Of a DNA stretch of 64,000 nucleotides, positions 23,362 to 33,192 are shown in pieces. Numbering within the stretch: position 1 is the stretch's first letter; each line of letters begins with the position of its first letter. The stretch is from Butyricicoccus sp. Marseille-Q5471 (GTDB taxonomy: Bacteria; Bacillota; Clostridia; Oscillospirales; Butyricicoccaceae), in contig NZ_CATNVC010000001.1 in NCBI RefSeq assembly GCF_951230135.1, positions 388,746-452,745 of the forward strand. The letters are read 5' to 3'. Made by a program: the position numbers and the translations under genes. The notes below the pieces were generated by a model that searched no databases, was not told the DNA's origin, and saw only the letters and a list, made by a program, of their open reading frames with translations.

Positions 23362-24609
23362 ATGTATGAAAAGCGCGTCCTGCCAAACGGCGTACGCCTG
23401 ATTTCCGAACGGATCGGTCAAGTGCGCACCGCCTCAATCGGTATTTGGATTGGCAACGGCAGCCGCTATGAGCCTGCCGCCCTCGGCGGAATTTCGCACT
23501 TTATCGAGCACATGATTTTCAAGGGAACGGAAAAACGCTCCGCCCGCCACCTCGCCATTGCGATGGATGCGCTTGGCGGTCAGTTCAACGCCTTTACCGA
23601 CAAGGAATGCACCTGCTATTATATGAAGCTGCTCGATACCCGGATTAAGACCGGCGTTTCAATTCTTGCGGATATGTTCATGAACTCCCGCTTCGCGCAG
23701 GAGGACATCGAGCTTGAGCGCGGCGTCGTGCTTGAGGAAATCGACATGTATGAGGACACGCCCGACGATGTGGCGATTGAAAAGCTGTTTGAGCGCTGCT
23801 ACGCAGGTTCTGCACTGGGCCGCCCGATTCTCGGCACGCCCGAAACGCTGCAGACCATCAACTCGGAAGCAATGCATGCCTATGTCAGTGAGTTTTACCG
23901 CCCCCATGACACGGTCGTGGCGATTTCGGGCAGCTTTACCGAGGACGATCTGGATTATATTGCAGATTTGTTCTCCGCCATGACGGGTGAGGGACACAAC
24001 GCGCCGACCCTCGCGCGCTACACGCCGAGCCTTGTGCTGCGTGAAAAGGAGATTGAACAGAATCACCTCTGTCTCTCCTTTCCCGGCGTACCGCTGCTGA
24101 GTGAACAACGCTTTCAAATGAATCTGCTTGGCTCGATTTTAGGCGGCGGCATGTCGTCCCGCTTGTTCCAGACCGTGCGCGAGCAGAACGGTCTGTGCTA
24201 CTCGATTTATTCGTTCGGCACCTCTCATCTGGACACCGGCCTGCTGTCCGTGTACGCAGGCGTCGGGCCGGACTCCGAGCGCCGTGCGCTCGAGCTCATC
24301 ATCCGCGTGCTGCGCGACTTCTGCGAAAACGGCCCTGATGCGGACGAGCTTGCACGCTGCCGTGAGCAGGTCAAGACCACCCTGCTGATGGGGCTGGAAA
24401 GCACCGGTACGCGCATGATGTCCATCGGTAAGAGCGAGCTGATGCGCGGCACGGTCGATCCGATCGAAACCGTGCTTGCCCACTACGATGCGGTCACGGC
24501 GGCGGATATTCTGGCGCTTGCCCGGCAGACGTTCGACTTTACCAAGGCTTCGCTCTCGGTCGTCGGTCAACCCGACACGGCGGACAGCTACAAAACGCTT
24601 CTTCTTTAA
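23362..24609 (+). CDS. M16 family zinc metallopeptidase
   Basis: A 415-residue pitrilysin-type peptidase of the YmxG/PqqL-like single-chain class. The inverted zinc motif HFIEH is at about 46-50 (ISHFIEHMIFKG), and the third ligand Glu lies in ELERGVVLEEI (about 122). The C-terminal M16 domain includes the substrate-binding arginine-tyrosine region (LCYSIYSF). Homologues in Firmicutes process small peptides; the target is unknown here. AAGGAGGAG precedes ATG 23362. Confidence 0.95.
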   Translation: MYEKRVLPNGVRLISERIGQVRTASIGIWIGNGSRYEPAALGGISHFIEHMIFKGTEKRSARHLAIAMDALGGQFNAFTDKECTCYYMKLLDTRIKTGVSILADMFMNSRFAQEDIELERGVVLEEIDMYEDTPDDVAIEKLFERCYAGSALGRPILGTPETLQTINSEAMHAYVSEFYRPHDTVVAISGSFTEDDLDYIADLFSAMTGEGHNAPTLARYTPSLVLREKEIEQNHLCLSFPGVPLLSEQRFQMNLLGSILGGGMSSRLFQTVREQNGLCYSIYSFGTSHLDTGLLSVYAGVGPDSERRALELIIRVLRDFCENGPDADELARCREQVKTTLLMGLESTGTRMMSIGKSELMRGTVDPIETVLAHYDAVTAADILALARQTFDFTKASLSVVGQPDTADSYKTLLL

Positions 24610-24628
24610 TATGTTTGCCTTTGTGCAG

Positions 24629-25330
24629 TTAAAAAGACCGTGGAACAGATTCCACGGTCTTTTTCGATACAGTTTGGGTGACAATCGGCGCTGCGTCCGA
24701 CTGTTCCTCCGGCTTGTCCTGCGGTGTACGCCCATCCTCGAGCATTTTGCGGTGTTCCTCGCGGCTGACACGCACAATTTCGGTCGGCGGCGCTTTATGT
24801 TCACCGTCCCGCGCTTCGCCGACACGCGTGCCGAGGTGCTCCTTGAGCCCGTTTGCCTTGTTGTCCCGCTTGGCGGAAACTGCAATGACCATCCGGTCGC
24901 CGTCCGCACCGGTCAGATAACCGTCCTCATAAAAGCGGCCGATGGTGCGGTCAAGTGCCTCATCAATATGGGTGAAGGGCGGCAGTTCCTCATCAAGCTC
25001 CGCCGCAAGCGCCTCGGACTGATCGTCCGCCGAGCGCACCTCAATCACCTGATCGAAGCGGTTGAGCGTGTACTCCACCGAGGTCTCCGTATCGACGCTG
25101 ACATAGGAATAGGGATCGTAGACCGCGTAAACGCTGACCGTCGCCATCGAGCACAGCACGGCCACGCAGGCCGCCCATGCGACCGTGCGCCGCAGACGCT
25201 TGGGGCGGTGCAGATTGAGATCAACCTGCTGACCGAGCACGTATTTCCGGTTGGCCACACGGTAAACCGTGCCGTCCTGTGCCAGCACGGCGGCTTTGGC
25301 ACCGCGCAGCTCAACGATCACAGCTCGCAT
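24629..25330 (-). CDS. rsgI: Anti-sigma factor RsgI-like protein
   Basis: A 233-residue single-pass membrane protein. The cytoplasmic RsgI N-terminal domain (about 1-52) contains AVIVELRGAKAAVLAQDGTV and VLGQQVDL. It is followed by a membrane helix (about 57-78, VAWAACVAVLCSMATVSVYAVY), the conserved juxtamembrane DPYSYVSVDTETSVEYTLNRFD, and a charged extracellular tail (about 110-233). It lacks the large carbohydrate-binding C-terminal modules seen in cellulolytic clostridia. It overlaps sigI by 13 bases and surely forms a sigma/anti-sigma pair. Confidence 0.9.
   Translation of the reverse strand: MRAVIVELRGAKAAVLAQDGTVYRVANRKYVLGQQVDLNLHRPKRLRRTVAWAACVAVLCSMATVSVYAVYDPYSYVSVDTETSVEYTLNRFDQVIEVRSADDQSEALAAELDEELPPFTHIDEALDRTIGRFYEDGYLTGADGDRMVIAVSAKRDNKANGLKEHLGTRVGEARDGEHKAPPTEIVRVSREEHRKMLEDGRTPQDKPEEQSDAAPIVTQTVSKKTVESVPRSF
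24631..24665. terminator. Bidirectional terminator
   Basis: AAAAAGACCGTGGAA/TTCCACGGTCTTTTT hairpin between the convergent M16 and rsgI genes. It sits over the last codons of rsgI. Confidence 0.9.
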
Positions 25331-26046
25331 CGCTCCAACTCCTTTCTGATTCCCTGTAAATACTCCGACAGCATTGGATAATCGCCCGACAGCAGCAGTG
25401 CTGCCGCAATCAGATAACGTCGGTGCCGCTCAATTACCTTTTTCGGCACACCGCTGCTTTTGACCAGCTGCCCGATCGGCAGCTGTTTGGTTTTCTTCAT
25501 TTCATCGAGCAGCCCCGGCGTGCGGAGCAGCACGGCCGCCGCCTTGGCGCAGGCCGTGCGGGTTTTGTCCGCACGCGGCGAGCAGTCAGCAAGATCGTAA
25601 AAGGTGAAGCCGTAGTCTGCAAAGAGGGCGTTTGCCGCCTCGATTTCACCCGCGGCGCTCAGCGCCTGCGGCTGCGCCGCCTGTTCGGCAACGGCAAGCT
25701 GCAGGGACGTATCGCCCTCGTCCGGGTCGATTGTTCCGTCAAACGCCTGCGGCGCAAGCTGTATCTCACAGGAAAACCGACGCTGCCCGCGATGATAATC
25801 GGTCAGTCGGCGGCTGATGACGGTCGCAGCAAAGGGCAGAAAGCCGCCGTTCGCCGGATTGTAGGCCTGCACCGCCTCGTAAAATGCCATCAGTGCGATG
25901 GAAAACTCATCGTCGCTCCGGTCGACGAATCGGCCGCAGTTTTTGCCTGCGCATCGCAGAATGAACTGCTGCTGCGCGGTGATAAACCGCTCCAGATATG
26001 CATTGTCGTCCGCCGCACGCACGGCCTGCTGATTGACAAGCACCAC
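25318..26046 (-). CDS. sigI: RNA polymerase sigma factor SigI
   Basis: A 242-residue sigma-70-type factor of the SigI group. It has the N-terminal sigma-2-like region (YLERFITAQQQFILRCAGK, RSDDEFSIALMAFYEAVQAYNP, FLPFAATVISRRLTDYHR) and the SigI-specific C-terminal domain (QLVKSSGVPKKVIERHRRYLIAAALLLSGDY). The start is GTG at 26046 behind GGGAGGTGAA. The family responds to heat or polysaccharide signals through RsgI. Confidence 0.93.
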   Translation of the reverse strand: MVLVNQQAVRAADDNAYLERFITAQQQFILRCAGKNCGRFVDRSDDEFSIALMAFYEAVQAYNPANGGFLPFAATVISRRLTDYHRGQRRFSCEIQLAPQAFDGTIDPDEGDTSLQLAVAEQAAQPQALSAAGEIEAANALFADYGFTFYDLADCSPRADKTRTACAKAAAVLLRTPGLLDEMKKTKQLPIGQLVKSSGVPKKVIERHRRYLIAAALLLSGDYPMLSEYLQGIRKELERCEL

Positions 26047-26136
26047 GCCGATTCACCTCCCCATTCCTTGTTGGGTTTATTTTATCGGCGCAGTGTGTTT
26101 AGTTTGTGTAAAGTACGTTTTGGTTGCGTGACCGCT

Positions 26137-28473
26137 TTATTGTGTTTTTGTGACGTTCTGGAAGCGCGTCAGCATGGTCGCGACCTCGGCGCGGGTGGCT
26201 GTGCCGCCGGGATTCAGCGTGGTCGCGCTGCTGCCTGTCAAAATGCCCTTGGAAACGCACCATGAGACCGCATCCGCCGCGTAGGACGAAATCTGTCCCG
26301 CGTCGGTATAGGTGGACAGGTCGGCGCTCTCCGCATCCGCACCTGCATAGCGGTACAGCATGGCGGCAAGCTGCTCCCGCGTGACGCTCTGGTCGGGCGA
26401 GAATACCCCGCTCGACGTGCCGCTGATGACACCCTTATCATTCGCCCACTGGACGGCCTGCGCGTAGTAGGCGGTGGACTCCACATCGCCAAAGGCTGAG
26501 CCGGCCTGCGCAGTCTCGCCGCTCATACGATACAGTACGGTTGCAAGCATGCCGCGCGTCATCGCGCCGTTAGGGGCAAAGGTGGTTGTGTCCGTGCCGT
26601 TCATCAGTCCGCTGCGGGTGACCTGCTCCACCGCCTGATAGTACCAGTCGGTGGGTTTTACATCCTGAAAGCCGCTCTGCGCACCGGTTTGCTGATTGCC
26701 GCCCGTGCCAAGCGCCGCCTCAGCTGTACCGACCGACTCGCCGTCCACCAGCACGGTGTAGGTCTCGCCCTCGGTGAGCGCATCAGAGGAGTAGATGACA
26801 TTCGCCATCGGGCCGAGCGCGGTCGCGGTGTAAAGCGTTTTGCCGCTGCTGTTCTGCACGGTAATCACGCTGCCCGCGGTGATACCGAGTGCGCTCGTCT
26901 GGCTCATGCCGCCACCTGCGCCGTCCGGTTTTGTGCCCGTCGCACCGTCGGGGCGCTCTCCCTTATTGGGGCGGGTGAACGTGCCGTCTGTGTTCTCGGG
27001 CGGGGTCATCTGCTGTCCGTCCATGCCGGTCGGTGCGGTGGGCTGTTCACCGGTTGTGCCGGTCGGACGTGTACCGCCGCCGCCCATCATTGCGGCTGTG
27101 CCGACCATCACATAAGGCTGGCTGCCGCCGGTCGGTGTCATGCCTGCGCCGAAGAGCGTGCCACCGTCAAGCGTAAAGGACCCGTCATAATCAATTGCAA
27201 TGTCGCCGCCGTTATTTGCGCCATACACCTCAACCGTGCCGCCGTACATATTGATATCATGGTTGGAATCGAGCGCGTCCGCGCCCGCGTCCACATAAAG
27301 GTTGCCGCCGTAAAGGTTGATTTCATACAGGTCGGAGCGCTCGCCGATATCGCTGTTGGCCGCATTCAGGCCGTCGTCGGACGCGACTACGTCAAGATCG
27401 CCGCCGTATACGGTGACCGTAGTGCCCTCCAGACCCTCATAGCTTGCGGTGATCTGAATGCGCGGGGTCGTGGTCGAGGATACGCCCTGCTGGCCGACCG
27501 TCAGCGCATCGTCGGCATGCAGCGCGTCGTCTCCGGTTGCGATGGTAAACTCGCCGCCTGTCACAGCCAGCGTGTTCGCGTGCAGCGCGTCATCCGCCGT
27601 GTCGAGGTCGAAGCTGCCGCCCGATACAGCCAGCGTGCCGCCCGCCTTCAGACCCTTGCACGACTCTGCTTCTTCGGCAAGCGTGGTCTTGTGACCGCTG
27701 TTGGTCGTCACGTCAAACGTGCCACCCGTGACCGTCAGGTCACCGTCGGCCTGCACGCCGTCGCAGGCAGCGGTCAGCGCGAGCGTGCCGCCCGAAATGG
27801 TGACGTTGCCCGCCGACACTGTGTCCGTTTCGTCCGGTGACGCCTTGACCGCGTCTCCCTGTGCGTTAACAGTCAGCTTGCCGCCTGCGATTTTTAAATC
27901 GTTGTCGCAGGACAGGCCGTCGTCCGCAGCGTCAATGTTCAGCGTCAGCTCATCGACCGTGATGCTCGATTCTGCCGCGCCCTTGATGCCGTTTTTGAAG
28001 TTGCCGTCGACCGTCAGCGCGCCTGCGCCACTGAGCGACAGACTGCCGCCGGTTTTGACCTTGATGGCCGCATTTTCGTCATTCGCCGCAGCCGAGTCGG
28101 CGACTGTGTTCTTCGTGCCGGATGCCGCTACCAGATTGGCCTCCGCGCCCTTGTTGACCGTAATCGCCGAGGTGGCGGTCGAGGTCAGCGTCAGGCCGCT
28201 GAGCACCAGCGTCACGTCCTCCACGTCCTTTTTGACGGTGATTGTGCCATCACTGCACGAGCCGGAAAAGACATAGGTGCCAGCGGCGGTGATTGCGACG
28301 GCTGTTCCGTCGATTTCAAAGCCGTTATACTTGCCCGAGCCGCTTGCCGCGCTCGAGGTAAAGGAAATCATGGTTGCGTTGTCGGTCGTGTAGCTGGTCG
28401 CCGCGCAGGCGACGGTCGGCAGCAGGCCTGCCGCAACCGCAGCGACCAACAGACCGGATAATACTCGTTTCAT
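26137..28473 (-). CDS. Carbohydrate-binding (Cthe_2159/DUF4353-like) surface protein with three SLH domains
   Basis: A 778-residue secreted protein. A signal peptide (about 1-25, LLVAAVAAGLLPTVACA) is followed by a long parallel beta-helix (about 30-470) of repeats with acidic DDGL, DDAL and GDAV turns. These acidic turns are the calcium- and polysaccharide-binding pattern of the Cthe_2159-type cellulose/pectin-binding fold. A Gly/Pro/Thr-rich linker (about 475-560) and a small beta domain precede three S-layer homology repeats at the C-terminus (WYYQAVEQV, YYAQAVQWAND, YAADAVSWCV), which anchor it to secondary wall polymer. It is followed upstream by DUF4956 and VTC genes, a recurring trio. 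Confidence 0.9.
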   Translation of the reverse strand: MKRVLSGLLVAAVAAGLLPTVACAATSYTTDNATMISFTSSAASGSGKYNGFEIDGTAVAITAAGTYVFSGSCSDGTITVKKDVEDVTLVLSGLTLTSTATSAITVNKGAEANLVAASGTKNTVADSAAANDENAAIKVKTGGSLSLSGAGALTVDGNFKNGIKGAAESSITVDELTLNIDAADDGLSCDNDLKIAGGKLTVNAQGDAVKASPDETDTVSAGNVTISGGTLALTAACDGVQADGDLTVTGGTFDVTTNSGHKTTLAEEAESCKGLKAGGTLAVSGGSFDLDTADDALHANTLAVTGGEFTIATGDDALHADDALTVGQQGVSSTTTPRIQITASYEGLEGTTVTVYGGDLDVVASDDGLNAANSDIGERSDLYEINLYGGNLYVDAGADALDSNHDINMYGGTVEVYGANNGGDIAIDYDGSFTLDGGTLFGAGMTPTGGSQPYVMVGTAAMMGGGGTRPTGTTGEQPTAPTGMDGQQMTPPENTDGTFTRPNKGERPDGATGTKPDGAGGGMSQTSALGITAGSVITVQNSSGKTLYTATALGPMANVIYSSDALTEGETYTVLVDGESVGTAEAALGTGGNQQTGAQSGFQDVKPTDWYYQAVEQVTRSGLMNGTDTTTFAPNGAMTRGMLATVLYRMSGETAQAGSAFGDVESTAYYAQAVQWANDKGVISGTSSGVFSPDQSVTREQLAAMLYRYAGADAESADLSTYTDAGQISSYAADAVSWCVSKGILTGSSATTLNPGGTATRAEVATMLTRFQNVTKTQ

Positions 28474-28484
28474 GTTGCTCCTCC

Positions 28485-29162
28485 TTATAATGTTTCGCGC
28501 AGCGTCGGCACCTTGCCGCAGACAATGTCCAGATTGCCGTTGCGGCAGCGAACCGCGTCCAGCAGCTCCTTCTCAATCTCCGACGATTTGAGCGTGATGT
28601 GATAATGCAGATTGTACAGGCTGCCCATATTGGTCGTGCGCACCGAAATCAGCTCGGCATGGCGGGTGTACTGCTCAAACAAATCGTCGAACAGGCCGGT
28701 ATAATCAAGGTTTTCGGGGATGGTGATTTTCAGTTCCTTTTCCTCGCAGGGCTTGACGCCGAAGGACAGCAGGCTGTACAGCAGCAGCAGCGCGCACACG
28801 GCCACGCCTACAATGACAGCCACGCCCACATATCCCATACCGGTCGCAAGGCCGAGGGTCATGGTCAGGAAAATGCAGGTGATGTCCCGCGCCGTGCCTG
28901 CCGCCGAGCGGAAGCGCACCAGACTGAACGCACCCGCGACCGCAACGCCCGCGCCGAGGTTTCCGTTGACTAACAGAATAATCGACTGCACCAGAATGGG
29001 CAGCAGCGCTAGTGTAATCGCCATGGACTGGGTGGAATGGTTTTTGAACATGTAAACCGCCGCGACCAATGCGCCGAGGGCGAGTGAGACGACGGTGCAG
29101 ATGAGAAATCCTTGCGCGGTCAGTCCCGCGGACAGGATAGAGCCAAATAAAATGTCAGGCAC
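28485..29162 (-). CDS. DUF4956 family membrane protein
   Basis: A 225-residue protein. GTG at 29162 is chosen because GGAGGAAA lies 7-11 bases upstream; it overlaps the end of the VTC gene by 8 bases. About four membrane helices occupy residues 10-140, including the conserved GAFSLVRFRSAAGTARDI loop. A cytoplasmic ferredoxin-like domain follows (about 150-225, ELKITIPENLDYTGLFDDL). The family is nearly always found next to VTC polyphosphate polymerase genes, so it probably assists polyphosphate synthesis or transfer; the mechanism is unknown. Confidence 0.9.
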   Translation of the reverse strand: MPDILFGSILSAGLTAQGFLICTVVSLALGALVAAVYMFKNHSTQSMAITLALLPILVQSIILLVNGNLGAGVAVAGAFSLVRFRSAAGTARDITCIFLTMTLGLATGMGYVGVAVIVGVAVCALLLLYSLLSFGVKPCEEKELKITIPENLDYTGLFDDLFEQYTRHAELISVRTTNMGSLYNLHYHITLKSSEIEKELLDAVRCRNGNLDIVCGKVPTLRETL

Positions 29163-29877
29163 AGGTGATTTCCTCCTTTTGTTTCTGCGCCAGCGAACGC
29201 TGGTACGCAAGGCCGTATTTCGAAAAGCTGACGGGAAAAATCCGAAGCTCCGACAGCGCGCGGGCAAGCCACAGCGGGGTGGTGCCGGGGATTTTAATCT
29301 CCATCAGGCAGGTGCCGGGTTCGAGCAGCTGCTCCCCCCATGCGCCCGCCTTCAGGTCAAGCCGATCCTGCCGCCAGCGGATGTTCGCATCAAAAGTGAC
29401 GCGCAGATCGGGCTGATACTGGTCAAACAGCGCAAGCCTGTCATAAAAGATACACATTGCGGGCTGCAGTTCGCCATAAAACTGCTTGATCCAGTCAATC
29501 TCGCGGATAATCTGGCTGTCCGTGGGCGGCAGCTCGCTTCCGCAAAGATAGCCGACCGCCTCGTCATAGGCCATGGCCGCGCGGCGCTTGTAAACCACGC
29601 CCGCGAATTTCTTTTTGATTTCGGCAAAGGCTTCGGTATCCTCTCCCGGCGTTTTGTAGCAGCGCAGCCGCAGCTTCTCCTTATATGCCGGTTTGTCCAG
29701 TGACCGACGCACCAGCTTAAAGTCCGGCGTATCAAAATAAATGTTGCCGATGGTCGATTCCGCGAAACGGTCGCGCACCATGCGGTCCGCCAACACCTCG
29801 CCGAGCGCATCATACTGCGCCTGCGTCAAGAGATATTTCTTTTCGTATCGCCTGAATACGTCCTGATATGTACTCAT
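29155..29877 (-). CDS. VTC-domain polyphosphate polymerase
   Basis: A 240-residue protein made almost solely of the VTC catalytic tunnel domain: RRYEKKYLLTQAQYDAL, IYFDTPDF, the basic strand YKEKLRLRCY, EIKKKFAGVVYKRR, and the closing LMEIKIPG and FSKYGLAYQ. The alternating Lys/Arg and Glu residues match the nucleotide- and metal-binding tunnel of yeast Vtc4. In bacteria these stand-alone proteins accompany DUF4956 and a surface carbohydrate-binding or CotH protein, as here. Confidence 0.93.
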   Translation of the reverse strand: MSTYQDVFRRYEKKYLLTQAQYDALGEVLADRMVRDRFAESTIGNIYFDTPDFKLVRRSLDKPAYKEKLRLRCYKTPGEDTEAFAEIKKKFAGVVYKRRAAMAYDEAVGYLCGSELPPTDSQIIREIDWIKQFYGELQPAMCIFYDRLALFDQYQPDLRVTFDANIRWRQDRLDLKAGAWGEQLLEPGTCLMEIKIPGTTPLWLARALSELRIFPVSFSKYGLAYQRSLAQKQKEEITCA

Positions 29878-29981
29878 GGGGGTTCGCCTCCTGTTTGTTT
29901 TGCTCTTTGCTATATCATTCGGCGCGCCGCTTCGAAATTTTGGGGTGCTGCTGAAAATTTCTGAAATTATTTTTTTGCAAA

Positions 29982-30011
29982 CAAAAAAAGAGCCGCCCTT
30001 TTGGGCAGCTC
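29982..30011 (-). terminator. Terminator of the AGCS symporter gene
   Basis: On the minus strand GAGCTGCCC-AAAA-GGGCGGCTC followed by T7, 13 bases after the AGCS stop. Confidence 0.9.
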
Positions 30012-30023
30012 TTCGCTGTTTGT

Positions 30024-31412
30024 TTATTTGTCCACGACCGGAATCGGCGTTTCGTCTTTTTCATCGAGATGCGCTAAGTAATGCTTAGTCTCCTTCGCAA
30101 TCACACCGGACAGCAGCAGCACCGCGACCAGGTTCGGAATCGCCATCAACGCGTTGAGGATGTCGGCAATTGTCCAAACAAGGTCAAGCGCCAGCACCGG
30201 ACCGACAACCACGATTGCAATGAAGATAACCTTATACGGCAGGATTGCCTTCTTGCCGAACAGATACTCTGCGCAGCGCTCGCCGTAGTACGACCAGCCG
30301 AGGATGGTGGAATACGCAAAGGTAATGATACCGATGACCAGAATCAGCGGTCCGAACACCGGAATCTGCGAGAACGCCGCCGTCGTCATCTGGCCGCCGT
30401 TTTGAATCATATCCATATTGATGTCCGGGTTTTTCATAATGGTCGTAACAAGCACCAGACCGGTCATCAGGCACACGACAACCGTATCCCAGAACGTGCC
30501 GGTTGCGGAGACGAGCGCCTGCCGAACGGGATTGCGGGTTTGCGCGGCGCTTGCGACCAGCGGCGCCGAGCCCATGCCGGATTCATTGGAAAACAGGCCG
30601 CGTGCCACGCCGTACTGCATAGCCATCATGATGCCGCGGCCGACCAGACCGCCTGCGACCGAGCCGGGCGTGAACGCCAGCGTCAGAATCGCCTTGACGG
30701 CGGGCAGGATAAAGTCCCAGTTAAGGCATAGGATAATGACACAGCCCAGCACATAGAACACCGCCATAAAGGGCACCAGCTTTTCGCAGACGGTTGCAAT
30801 GGACTTGATGCCGCCGATAATGACAACCGCTGTGATGAGGCCGAACACAATGCCGATAGCGATAGACGGAATGGTGAAATTCGGCGTATTGCTCTGAATC
30901 ACCTCAGCGATCGCGTTGATTTGCGTGCCGCAGCCGATGCCAAACGAGGCCAGCACGGCGAACAGCGCAAAAATCACACCAAGCCATTTCATATTCAGGC
31001 CGCGCTCCAGCGCGTACATCGCGCCGCCCTGCATGCGGCCGTCCTTCGTCTGCACGCGGTACTTGACCGCAATCAGGCTTTCCGCGTACTTGGTGGCAAT
31101 GCCGAATACGCCCGTCAGCCAACACCAGAGCACCGCGCCCGGACCGCCGATGAACACAGCCGTGCCCACGCCGATGATATTGCCCGTACCGATGGTCGAC
31201 GCCAGCGCGGTGGTCAATGCCTGAAACTGGCTGACATCGCCCGGCGAATCCGGATCCTTCGTGACCGATAGTTTGATGCCAGTCAATGTTTTGCGCTGAA
31301 TGAAGCCGGTGCGGAATGTCATGAACAAGTGAGTGCCCAGAAGCAGCACAATCATCGGCAGCCCCCAGATCCAGGTGTCGATTCGACCCATCAGCTCAGA
31401 AAATGCTTCCAT
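30024..31412 (-). CDS. AGCS family sodium:alanine/glycine symporter
   Basis: A 462-residue transporter with about 10-11 membrane helices. It carries the family signatures GTGNIIGVGTAVFIGGPGAV (about 78-97) and the loop ATKYAESLIAVKYR. Substrates in the family are alanine and glycine, sometimes glutamine, with sodium. A 165-base leader with a terminator-like hairpin precedes it, suggesting regulated expression. Confidence 0.94.
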   Translation of the reverse strand: MEAFSELMGRIDTWIWGLPMIVLLLGTHLFMTFRTGFIQRKTLTGIKLSVTKDPDSPGDVSQFQALTTALASTIGTGNIIGVGTAVFIGGPGAVLWCWLTGVFGIATKYAESLIAVKYRVQTKDGRMQGGAMYALERGLNMKWLGVIFALFAVLASFGIGCGTQINAIAEVIQSNTPNFTIPSIAIGIVFGLITAVVIIGGIKSIATVCEKLVPFMAVFYVLGCVIILCLNWDFILPAVKAILTLAFTPGSVAGGLVGRGIMMAMQYGVARGLFSNESGMGSAPLVASAAQTRNPVRQALVSATGTFWDTVVVCLMTGLVLVTTIMKNPDINMDMIQNGGQMTTAAFSQIPVFGPLILVIGIITFAYSTILGWSYYGERCAEYLFGKKAILPYKVIFIAIVVVGPVLALDLVWTIADILNALMAIPNLVAVLLLSGVIAKETKHYLAHLDEKDETPIPVVDK

Positions 31413-31577
31413 TTACGTCTCCCCTTTTTGTTTGTGAAATATTAAAAGGGAGTGAAGCCACGGCTTCCCTCCCTAAAAAACAACACAAATATGCGCGTGC
31501 CGCAACGCCGCGCCGGTCTCTCGTGTTATGAGAGTCTGCGTGTTTCGTGCGCCCCATTGCACCCGAACCGCAATTTT
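31413..31577 (-). promoter_or_regulatory. Structured 5' leader of the AGCS gene with terminator-like hairpin
   Basis: The predicted transcript starts near 31577. It contains paired segments around ACTCTC/GAGAG (about 31512-31531) and a GC-rich stem (GCGCGGCG.../GCACGCGC), then a hairpin GGGAGGGAAGCC/GGCTTCACTCCC (31473-31448) followed by TTTT, 32 bases before the AUG. This layout suggests attenuation or a riboswitch. The glycine-riboswitch core was not found, so the ligand is open. This leader plus the promoters on either side account for the 324-base gap 31413-31736. Confidence 0.45.
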
Positions 31578-31582
31578 AGATT

Positions 31583-31611
31583 ATTATACCGTATCACCCA
31601 ATTAAATGCAA
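31583..31611 (-). promoter_or_regulatory. Promoter of the AGCS gene
   Basis: Minus strand TTGCAT (31611-31606), 17 bases, TATAAT (31588-31583). Confidence 0.75.
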
Positions 31612-31707: not shown

Positions 31708-31736
31708 AATTAGGCAGTCAACTGAGACCGCAAAAC

Positions 31737-31813
31737 GCGCCAGTAGCTCAGCTGGATAGAGTGTTTGGCTACGAACCAAAAGGTCGGGGGTTCGAATCCC
31801 TTCTGGCGTACCA
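31737..31813 (+). tRNA. tRNA-Arg (anticodon ACG)
   Basis: A 77-base cloverleaf: acceptor GCGCCAG/CTGGCGT (G-T first pair), anticodon loop CTACGAA giving ACG (read as inosine-CG), T-arm GGGGGTTCGAATCCC and encoded CCA. Confidence 0.97.
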
Positions 31814-31817
31814 AATT

Positions 31818-31851
31818 AAACCGTTGTTTCATCCGAAATGACGGTTTTTTT
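31818..31851 (+). terminator. Terminator of tRNA-Arg
   Basis: AAACCGT...ACGGTTT hairpin with an inner TTTCAT/AAATGA pairing, followed by T7. Confidence 0.75.
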
Positions 31852-31962
31852 GTATTTATTTTGAGTTTCACTTTGATCCAGTCTCCAATTTTATGACCAT
31901 TCCGCGGCTGCCGCAATGTGCTCATGTTAATCAGCAACGTGCTCTTGGCACGTAAAAGAAAA

Positions 31963-31999
31963 GGGCAGGTGCTTTTCCCATGAAAGCGCCTGTCTTTTT
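31963..31999. terminator. Bidirectional terminator
   Basis: A 12-bp stem GGCAGGTGCTTT/AAAGCGCCTGTC with T-rich tracts on both sides. It ends the leftward polyol dehydrogenase transcript, whose stop codon is at 32047. Confidence 0.8.
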
Positions 32000-32046
32000 C
32001 TTTTGGATTTCTCCGCACTATAATATGCATCCTGATGTATGAGCTA

Positions 32047-33192
32047 TCAATCCTCGCCGACATTTACCCAGATGTTTCCATTGGCATTTGATTTCAGGCA
32101 CGCATCCACAAATTCGATGCCGCGCACCCCATCCTCCACCGTCGGATAGCGCAAAGTGCCTGCATCGCCGCCTGACTTTTTCGCAATCAGATTCGCACAA
32201 TAGCCGTGATAGATGTTTCCAAACGCCTCATAGAAACCTTCAATATGCCCCGACGGCAGGCGGCAGAGCTCCTTCGCGGAGGGATAGAGGTAGTCGCGGT
32301 TGTTGGTGTAAATCTGCGGCGGCTGATTGATGCGCGTGACGCGCAGCTCCCATGGCTTCAGGTGCGTCCACTCAATCGATCCTTTTTCGCCGAAAACCCG
32401 GACGGTCAGCTCGGTTTCGTGCCCCATCGCTACCTGCGAGGTCCAAATGAGGCCCGGCACGCCGCCGTCGAACTCAACGAGCATCTGCGCGTTCGTTTCC
32501 AGCGGCACATCTGCGGGAATGCGGTCAAACCGCGCGATAACGCGCTTTGGGTGCATGCCGGTCATCTTGGAAATCAGACATTCCACATGCGTGCCAATGT
32601 CCGCACAGCAACCGGATTCGCCCGACCTCTTGGGATCATGCCGCCATGTTGCCTGCTCCGAATGTTCGGAAATCAGCGAAACCGCCAGCCATTCTTGCGG
32701 GTATTCGCCTTGAATTGTGGTGATTTTCCCAATTTCGCCCGCATCAATCATCTCGCGCGCCTGTCGAATCATTGCATAACCGGTATAGGTGTAGGTCACG
32801 CCGAATTGCAGATCTTTTTCCTTCGCAAGCGCAGCCAGCTCGCGTCCCTGCGCTGCATTCAGTGCAAGCGGCTTGTCACAAACGACGTGGATTCCCTTTT
32901 CAAGGAAGTATTTTGCAATGGGGTAATGGGTGTCGTTGGGCGTGACGATTGTCACAAAATCAATGCCGTCCTCGCGTGCGGATTCCGCATCCGCCATTTC
33001 GGTATAGCTGTGATATACCCGCGACAGGTCTGCCACGTTCCATTTCTCCGCGCACGACAGGTTTTGCTCGCTCTTGCGCGTAAAGCACCCTGCCACGAGC
33101 ACCGCCAAATCGTCCATGAGCGCACCGTGCCGGTGCACATCACCAATGAATGCACCGTTACCGCCGCCCACCATGCCAAATTTCAATTTCAT
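32047..33192 (-). CDS. Gfo/Idh/MocA family oxidoreductase
   Basis: A 381-residue NAD(P)-dependent dehydrogenase. The Rossmann start is KFGMVGGGNGAFIGDVHR (about 3-20), and the EKP-type motif is present as VVCDKPLALN (about 95). A C-terminal alpha/beta substrate domain has GSIEWTHLKPWEL, and the segment GESGCCADIGTHVECL contains the catalytic-type Asp and His. The longer loop and the motif ADIGTHVE match a subgroup acting on myo- or scyllo-inositol and related cyclic polyols. A terminator lies between it and the preceding dehydrogenase, so its level may be lower. Confidence 0.9.
   Translation of the reverse strand: MKLKFGMVGGGNGAFIGDVHRHGALMDDLAVLVAGCFTRKSEQNLSCAEKWNVADLSRVYHSYTEMADAESAREDGIDFVTIVTPNDTHYPIAKYFLEKGIHVVCDKPLALNAAQGRELAALAKEKDLQFGVTYTYTGYAMIRQAREMIDAGEIGKITTIQGEYPQEWLAVSLISEHSEQATWRHDPKRSGESGCCADIGTHVECLISKMTGMHPKRVIARFDRIPADVPLETNAQMLVEFDGGVPGLIWTSQVAMGHETELTVRVFGEKGSIEWTHLKPWELRVTRINQPPQIYTNNRDYLYPSAKELCRLPSGHIEGFYEAFGNIYHGYCANLIAKKSGGDAGTLRYPTVEDGVRGIEFVDACLKSNANGNIWVNVGED

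Follow-up and report, generated by a model that had tools for sequence, protein, structure and literature searches.

A 64,000-nucleotide stretch of contig NZ_CATNVC010000001.1 from Butyricicoccus sp. Marseille-Q5471 (the window) carries genes for a VTC-domain polyphosphate polymerase, a DUF4956 membrane protein and a secreted beta-helix protein, followed by genes for a SigI-like sigma factor and an RsgI-like anti-sigma factor. We consider it probable, though well short of secure, that these genes encode an envelope polyphosphate (polyP) module, consisting of polymerase, membrane partner and surface protein, which is under SigI/RsgI control. The features concerned are listed here by their positions in the window.

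29987..30014, reverse strand: terminator that closes the upstream symporter gene and marks the left border (-21.7 kcal/mol, z -4.9)
29916..29945, reverse strand: SigI-type promoter CCCCAAAA-N16-CGAATG, in which the preceding A gives ACCCC...CGAA, as in the published Bacillales consensus
29155..29877, reverse strand: VTC-domain polyphosphate polymerase gene (PF09359, 125.6 bits)
28485..29162, reverse strand: DUF4956 membrane-protein gene with a GTG start (PF16316, E 1.2e-16)
26137..28473, reverse strand: gene for a secreted beta-helix protein of the Cthe_2159 type, with three SLH repeats at its C-terminus (PF14262 and PF00395, three times)
26094..26112, reverse strand: repeat box TTTACACAAACTAAACACA before sigI (TACAC-N7-ACAC, found by eye), a tentative response-regulator site
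25318..26046, reverse strand: SigI-like sigma factor gene (PF04542, sigma-70 region 2)
24629..25330, reverse strand: RsgI-like anti-sigma factor gene (PF23750, 50.7 bits; PF12791, 17.6 bits)
24631..24664, reverse strand: terminator-like hairpin with a U5 end, overlapping the rsgI stop, right border (-22 kcal/mol, z -7.1)

SigI linkage and the promoter before vtc

The first-pass annotation had described the first three genes with an 8-base overlap between the first two, and the open reading frames and Pfam matches confirm their coordinates, strand and overlap. The overlap of the VTC and DUF4956 genes is GTGCCTGA (29162-29155), the gap between the DUF4956 and beta-helix genes is 11 nt long and contains GGAGGAG, and sigI and rsgI overlap by 13 nt on the same strand as the vtc unit. 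With the overlap, the short gap and the lack of an internal terminator, joint transcription of vtc, duf4956 and slh, which had also been proposed, is the natural reading, but the unit would be larger than three genes; the co-directional sigI- and rsgI-like genes (26046-24629) had been overlooked. In the spacer between slh and sigI, a terminator scan of this strand listed none, and folding is weak (z -1.7). Since the symporter terminator ends at 29987, the unit should start within the gap from 29986 to 29878. The hairpin at the end of rsgI is absent from the list of the terminator scan, probably because its T run pairs.

Between the upstream terminator and the VTC gene lies ACCCCAAAATTTCGAAGCGGCGCGCCGAATGAT, in which CGAA stands at exactly the distance predicted by the consensus. 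In the accessible text of the respective papers, the Bacillales SigI consensus is given as ACCCCC--AA 15(N) CGAA (PMC4711584), and the SigI promoters of Clostridium thermocellum have an A-tract and CGAA (PMC6056542). The pattern CCCCAAAA-N15/16-CG[A/C]ATG, as well as a shorter form, has a single match in the 2.94-Mb genome, and this match is before VTC. Two gene orders that join sigI to vtc were distinguished, namely vtc-duf4956-cthe2159-sigI-rsgI (order A) and sigI-rsgI-RsgI_M/PepSY lipoprotein-vtc-duf4956-cotH (order B). A wider pattern with ≤2 mismatches in CCCCAAAA (chance about 0.005 per 160 nt over all loci) was found in 5/5 VTC upstreams of order A and in 0/119 others (124 unique upstreams), a contrast that loses weight as support for our reading in that the pattern was defined after inspecting those five upstreams, which are not independent because they are kin by descent within one family. 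Earlier strict scans of the family loci gave a match in the window's own genome only, plus an unrelated one in locus L064. The order-B sigI genes are preceded by a conserved site of their own, [AG]CCCC...CGTA, 28-29 nt long (6/6).

Among 72 genomes of the GTDB family, 47 have VTC and 11 have a SigI match, of which there is one in the window's own genome. SigI lies <4 kb from VTC in 8 of these 11 (six in order A, two in order B); in the other three it is unlinked (genome G044), followed by a contig break (G036) or a weak partial match (G063, E 1.1e-7). A sample of 196 Clostridia-class genomes gave, among the matches listed, 93 strong SigI matches (E <1e-30) in 57 genomes, and three of the 93 are <5 kb from VTC: our own, G248 and G265, the latter two in order B. 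Distances of 10-13 kb (G078, G146 and G261) were excluded from the linkage count. The SigI-VTC link is not class-wide and is confined to some lineages of this taxonomic order. In a tree of 35 SigI sequences, orders A and B form separate clades (100/100 each), with A adjoining the unlinked G044 SigI, which favors two, as yet unproven, recruitments.

Two further loci touch on linkage. In G036, contigs L081 and L190 both break off close to the same Asp-rich repeats, the first or second within rsgI and the other ahead of vtc; they are probably one order-B locus split by assembly in the rsgI repeats and were excluded from the count. In G226, a genome with many SigIs, sigI-rsgI is 7 kb away from, and convergent with, a vtc-duf4956-cotH-two-component operon (L186 5739-13877).

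The window SigI matches the NCBIfam SigI models (E 1.3e-53; TIGR02895, E 7.6e-46) and has region 2 without a Pfam match to region 4; rsgI follows it, and the SigI-type promoter is present. In the window RsgI, the RsgI_M domain is clear (50.7 bits against a cut-off of 25.3) and an RsgI_N match lies at the expected position with 17.6 bits against a cut-off of 25. An Asn-Pro in the periplasmic domain of RsgI is the cleavage site. The order-A RsgIs, 196-237 amino acids as read, have neither a sensor module nor Asn-Pro, and the corresponding stretches are DTNSSVEY (L055), DADSSIEY (L049) and VGGTDSVEY (L046); no RsgI was identified in L037. All six order-B RsgIs that were read keep the NP, and several have Asp-rich TDYG repeats in common with the lipoprotein that follows. 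This order-B lipoprotein, encoded between rsgI and vtc (or cotH), combines RsgI_M, PepSY and tandem TDYGPNNDGVTDYND repeats (L072 10296-11495, reverse strand; L184, L185, L188). Being Asp-rich, the TDYGPNNDGVTDYND repeats possibly bind cations.

Enzyme, membrane partner and surface protein

The VTC protein (240 amino acids) matches Pfam VTC with E 2.9e-36 (125.6 bits against a cut-off of 23), and no SPX domain was found in it by Pfam. Its best solved relative by profile is yeast Vtc4 (E 4.9e-19), and the structure model (predicted local distance difference test, pLDDT, 92.3) has as its best Foldseek match 3g3r, a polyP polymerase (E 2.1e-13), with Vtc3 and Vtc2 next. R10, E12, K14, K68, R70, R72, E86, K88, K97, R147, R159, E193, K195 and K220 are invariant in 30 VTC sequences; we take these basic and acidic residues to be the tunnel residues of Vtc4. 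The closest named relatives are from Butyricicoccus faecihominis (70% identical) and Agathobaculum (66%). From these matches, the product would be expected to make polyP. PPK1 is encoded in the same genome, which rules out VTC as its only polyP enzyme, and in 49/72 family genomes. As PPK1 is also present, VTC would serve a special purpose.

The AlphaFold2 model of the DUF4956 protein (pLDDT 84.6) has five transmembrane-length helices and a ferredoxin-like/ACT-like C-terminal domain. Aligned by hhalign with the MgtC proteins of relatives, DUF4956 scored 95.8% (E 6.7e-9, 209 columns), while 20 of 21 control clusters of other multi-pass membrane proteins stayed at ≤1% and one reached 44.9%. The C-terminal domain matches those of MgtC proteins (2lqj, Z 8.7; 7qa5, Z 8.4), a match that is weak when taken alone because ribosomal S6 and other ferredoxin-like folds reach higher Z. 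Pfam reports DUF4956 only, and no MgtC, for the window protein; in another protein, DUF4956-like by eye, the MgtC match (E 1.1e-4) is under the cut-off. The structure matches listed concern C-terminal-type folds; for the membrane core, they include no relative of known structure. By profile comparison, DUF4956 is a remote relative of MgtC, a claim that extends to remote homology and a similar way of working only.

The pairing of VTC and DUF4956 is far above chance and near absolute. Of the 196 class genomes, 98 have VTC and DUF4956 over the cut-off, 3 have VTC only, 0 have DUF4956 only and 95 have neither, a count that omits four sub-cut-off DUF4956 matches. Nearly all DUF4956 genes over the cut-off (118/120) lie <3 kb from VTC, and DUF4956 is close by at 118/127 VTC places; the nine exceptions include several fragments. 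The association had been called a recurring one, and its recurrence is wide; a lack of co-occurrence is clearly not what the survey found. When 132 VTC loci were read (the window being counted twice, also as L067, and L086-L088 duplicating L048/L046/L037), DUF4956 was next on the same strand in 123. A neighbor of the Cthe_2159 type was seen in 74 and CotH in 23, with neither in 35 (several at contig ends); the Cthe_2159 share is inflated, since L086-L165, the 80 loci kept out of 528 confirmed candidates, were chosen for the resemblance of their VTCs to those of the Cthe type.

The beta-helix protein of the window has three SLH repeats, as expected of an SLH wall protein, and a strong Cthe_2159 match (E 1e-71, 241.8 bits against a cut-off of 25.8), and its solved relatives are 4peu/4phb (E 7.8e-17). 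Cthe_2159 is present in every one of 62 partner proteins and SLH in four, all four from the sigI-linked clade. Most other partners have LxGC-type lipoboxes; the five order-A partners lack LxGC, and their signals end in ACAA or ACAD. A crude lipobox rule flags the order-A partners nonetheless and misses many evident lipoproteins. The first-pass annotation had proposed all three genes as a recurring combination. VTC and DUF4956 do recur with a surface partner, but an SLH protein as the recurring partner is ruled out (4/62); the partner is usually Cthe_2159, mostly as a lipoprotein, or CotH. As judged from the sequences, anchor and regulator changed together in the sigI-linked clade.

Upstream repeats and the probable usual regulation of vtc

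Repeated 7-mers at a distance of 11 bp were found in 91/124 unique VTC upstreams, compared to 23.1 +/- 4.6 in shuffles (z 14.8); the runner-up among the 26 repeat lags tested reached z 4.6. Control genes of the same loci had such repeats in 163/595 cases (Fisher 2e-21 against the VTC upstreams). The motif is TTHA[G/C]-N6-TTHA[G/C], the kind of site that is bound by OmpR-family regulators. The 11-bp repeat is present in 50/56 VTC loci that have a two-component system next to them and in 39/64 that do not, four loci being unclassed. Also enriched over shuffles in the VTC upstreams are TTHACA (19/124, exact), TTHAG (41/124) and WalR-type sites (11/124). What appears to be the usual wiring in the relatives is best explained by direct action of a two-component regulator of the OmpR type on the vtc promoter, the partner being a lipoprotein or CotH.

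In the sigI-linked loci, the 11-bp repeat was found before VTC in 2/5 by the formal rule, and the window's TTTCAGAAATTTTCAG, which scores 6.2, misses that rule (6 of 7). Before sigI, TACAC-N7-ACAC was seen by eye in 5/5 order-A loci; the formal rule is satisfied at the expected place in 2/5, and the window copy fails it. Upstream of B. subtilis sigI, WalR sites as well as SigmaA and SigI promoters are described in the accessible part of PMC7478892, and a sigI with two inputs is therefore known biology. A regulator whose action on vtc is direct in other loci may thus work through sigI here.

Control by PhoP in phosphate starvation was considered and rejected: TTHACA-N5-TTHACA occurs seven times in the window's own genome (three times in the reversed control), and no phosphate-uptake gene was seen by eye near the sites. 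Two of the boxes, at L238 and L239, stand before amidase-like and FtsE-like genes (named by eye), which hints that this genome has a wall regulator. Elsewhere in the window, an open reading frame at 31710-32063 (reverse strand), ending ...QKGFEPPTFWFVAKHSIQLSYWRV, overlaps a tRNA-Arg (31737-31813, forward strand) and is probably no real gene.

Interpretation, rival explanations and known systems

If our reading holds, RsgI would keep SigI at the membrane until an envelope or surface signal frees it. SigI would then drive vtc-duf4956-slh and, by read-through, sigI-rsgI, giving positive feedback, and a second promoter ahead of sigI with the regulator repeat box may give basal input. VTC would polymerize polyP from ATP at the inner face of the membrane, where DUF4956 would anchor it and probably help in chain movement or gating. 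The beta-helix protein would work outside, perhaps on the Ca2+-loaded anionic polymer. In this clade, SigI would have been inserted and the partner would have become SLH-anchored. We also put forward, as a doubtful but possible extension, that VTC-DUF4956 is a bacterial polyP synthase-translocase in which the place of the Vtc1-type channel is taken by an MgtC-like protein and polyP is carried across the cytoplasmic membrane to the surface for use by Cthe_2159 or CotH, with SigI/RsgI and two-component systems tuning surface polyP in an envelope stress response. The first-pass annotation had called the association mechanistically unexplained. As far as the chemistry goes this still holds; on the side of regulation, the promoter evidence offers a possible explanation.

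Several points weigh against this reading. The window SigI, although homologous, is under every curated NCBIfam cut-off (182 against 260 bits; 156.6 against 185), and for that reason we call it SigI-like. The window RsgI has no sensor module and, with DTETSVEY at the place in question, no Asn-Pro. The SigI of G044 is unlinked to VTC, and G152 has sigI-rsgI-lipoprotein-cotH (L188 8290-12868) without VTC or DUF4956, which are located elsewhere in that genome. L049, the fifth sigI-linked (order-A) partner, has no SLH match. With PPK1 present, VTC is unneeded for bulk polyP, and export of polyP via DUF4956 is proposed by analogy.

The enzyme might instead act as a tunnel enzyme (TTM) on another triphosphate, or phosphorylate or charge a surface polymer or protein, with CotH or Cthe_2159 as the downstream partner. 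Adenylate cyclase-like and tripolyphosphate-binding proteins are among the TTM folds, a PPK1 already exists in the genome, and CotH, a frequent partner, is called a protein kinase in the accessible text of PMC7112168. However, the TTM folds ranked below Vtc4 in the fold search, the best profile and fold matches being to Vtc4 and then to Vtc3 and Vtc2, and the tunnel residues of Vtc4 align and are mostly invariant, so we consider this rather unlikely. It is also unlikely, in our view, that SigI/RsgI are merely neighbors serving other genes, with the VTC operon transcribed from a housekeeping promoter or governed by a two-component system. The order-A loci are few and related, the SigIs of orders A and B fall into different clades, linkage is missing for some SigIs (as in G044) and repeat boxes still stand before VTC in the two sigI-linked loci mentioned above. 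Against this, the single SigI and the single promoter match of the genome are both at the VTC operon, orders A and B each have clade-specific SigI-type promoters, and a sigma-70 scan of this strand from 24300 to 31600 listed zero sites. The least probable of the explanations considered is that the module is an accessory of biofilm polysaccharide, in which VTC/DUF4956 and the surface protein assist in the synthesis or retention of an exopolysaccharide, for example Pel. PMC7112168, in its accessible part, reports cotH-polymerase-DUF4956-DUF4832 contiguous with pelDEADAFG, and a few family loci (L036, L045 and L052) have a cluster of a GT2 gene and a HEAT-protein gene behind CotH; the window operon, however, has no such genes beside it, and few of the loci examined contain the GT2 cluster.

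VTC occurs in 101/196 Clostridia-class genomes. The strict pairing with an MgtC-like protein, together with a named regulator and promoter, makes an unexplained neighborhood experimentally tractable. If envelope polyP is indeed under SigI/RsgI control, this regulatory pair would have polyP within its reach in addition to sugar sensing and wall homeostasis, giving a testable tie between polyP and cell-surface stress or sugar sensing.

A literature search, which covered few subscription papers, returned nothing on a SigI-VTC link, a DUF4956-MgtC relationship or a regulatory switch, and no paper joining sigI, rsgI and polyphosphate, or VTC domain and DUF4956 by those names. VTC-DUF4956-CotH clusters, one with sigma/anti-sigma genes, are already in print. 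In streptococci and clostridia, cotH, a poly-phosphate polymerase gene, DUF4956 and DUF4832 adjoin pelDEADAFG (PMC7112168). These Gram-positive pel loci share with the window the VTC-DUF4956 pair and a surface partner; there the partner is CotH and pel adjoins, and the accessible text describes no SigI, SLH or promoter analysis. The list for C. perfringens NELoc-2 includes polyphosphate polymerase domain proteins, CotH, a HEAT protein, a glycosyltransferase and a sigma and an anti-sigma factor (PMC11677781); in its accessible part it is an annotation list, in which sigma type and regulation are unanalyzed. Four of our VTC loci (L036, L045, L052 and L059), beside genes for a GT2 glycosyltransferase, a HEAT-repeat-like protein and a large secreted protein (named by eye), resemble this list.

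The SigI/RsgI systems of B. subtilis and C. thermocellum have in common with the window the sigI-rsgI pair and the SigI-type promoter and, in B. subtilis, as far as the accessible sources go, the dual input to sigI; the predicted target here differs, being a polyP/surface operon. The window RsgI, with neither a sugar-binding module nor Asn-Pro, resembles C. thermocellum RsgI8, in which, according to the accessible part of PMC12203970, there is no motif for self-cleavage and no distinct carbohydrate-binding domain. MgtC/SapB proteins have, like DUF4956, a membrane core and an ACT-like C-terminal domain, with a full-length profile match, but DUF4956 is a separate Pfam family with other conserved motifs and a near-obligate VTC partner. 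The beta-helix domain is shared with C. thermocellum Cthe_2159 (4peu/4phb), to which the window protein adds SLH and a place in a VTC operon. The eukaryotic VTC complex (Vtc4/Vtc3/Vtc1), in which synthesis is coupled to translocation according to the accessible part of PMC9911596, likewise combines a Vtc4-type polymerase domain with a membrane partner; in the window, the enzyme is without SPX (by Pfam) and the membrane partner is DUF4956 rather than a protein of the Vtc1 type.

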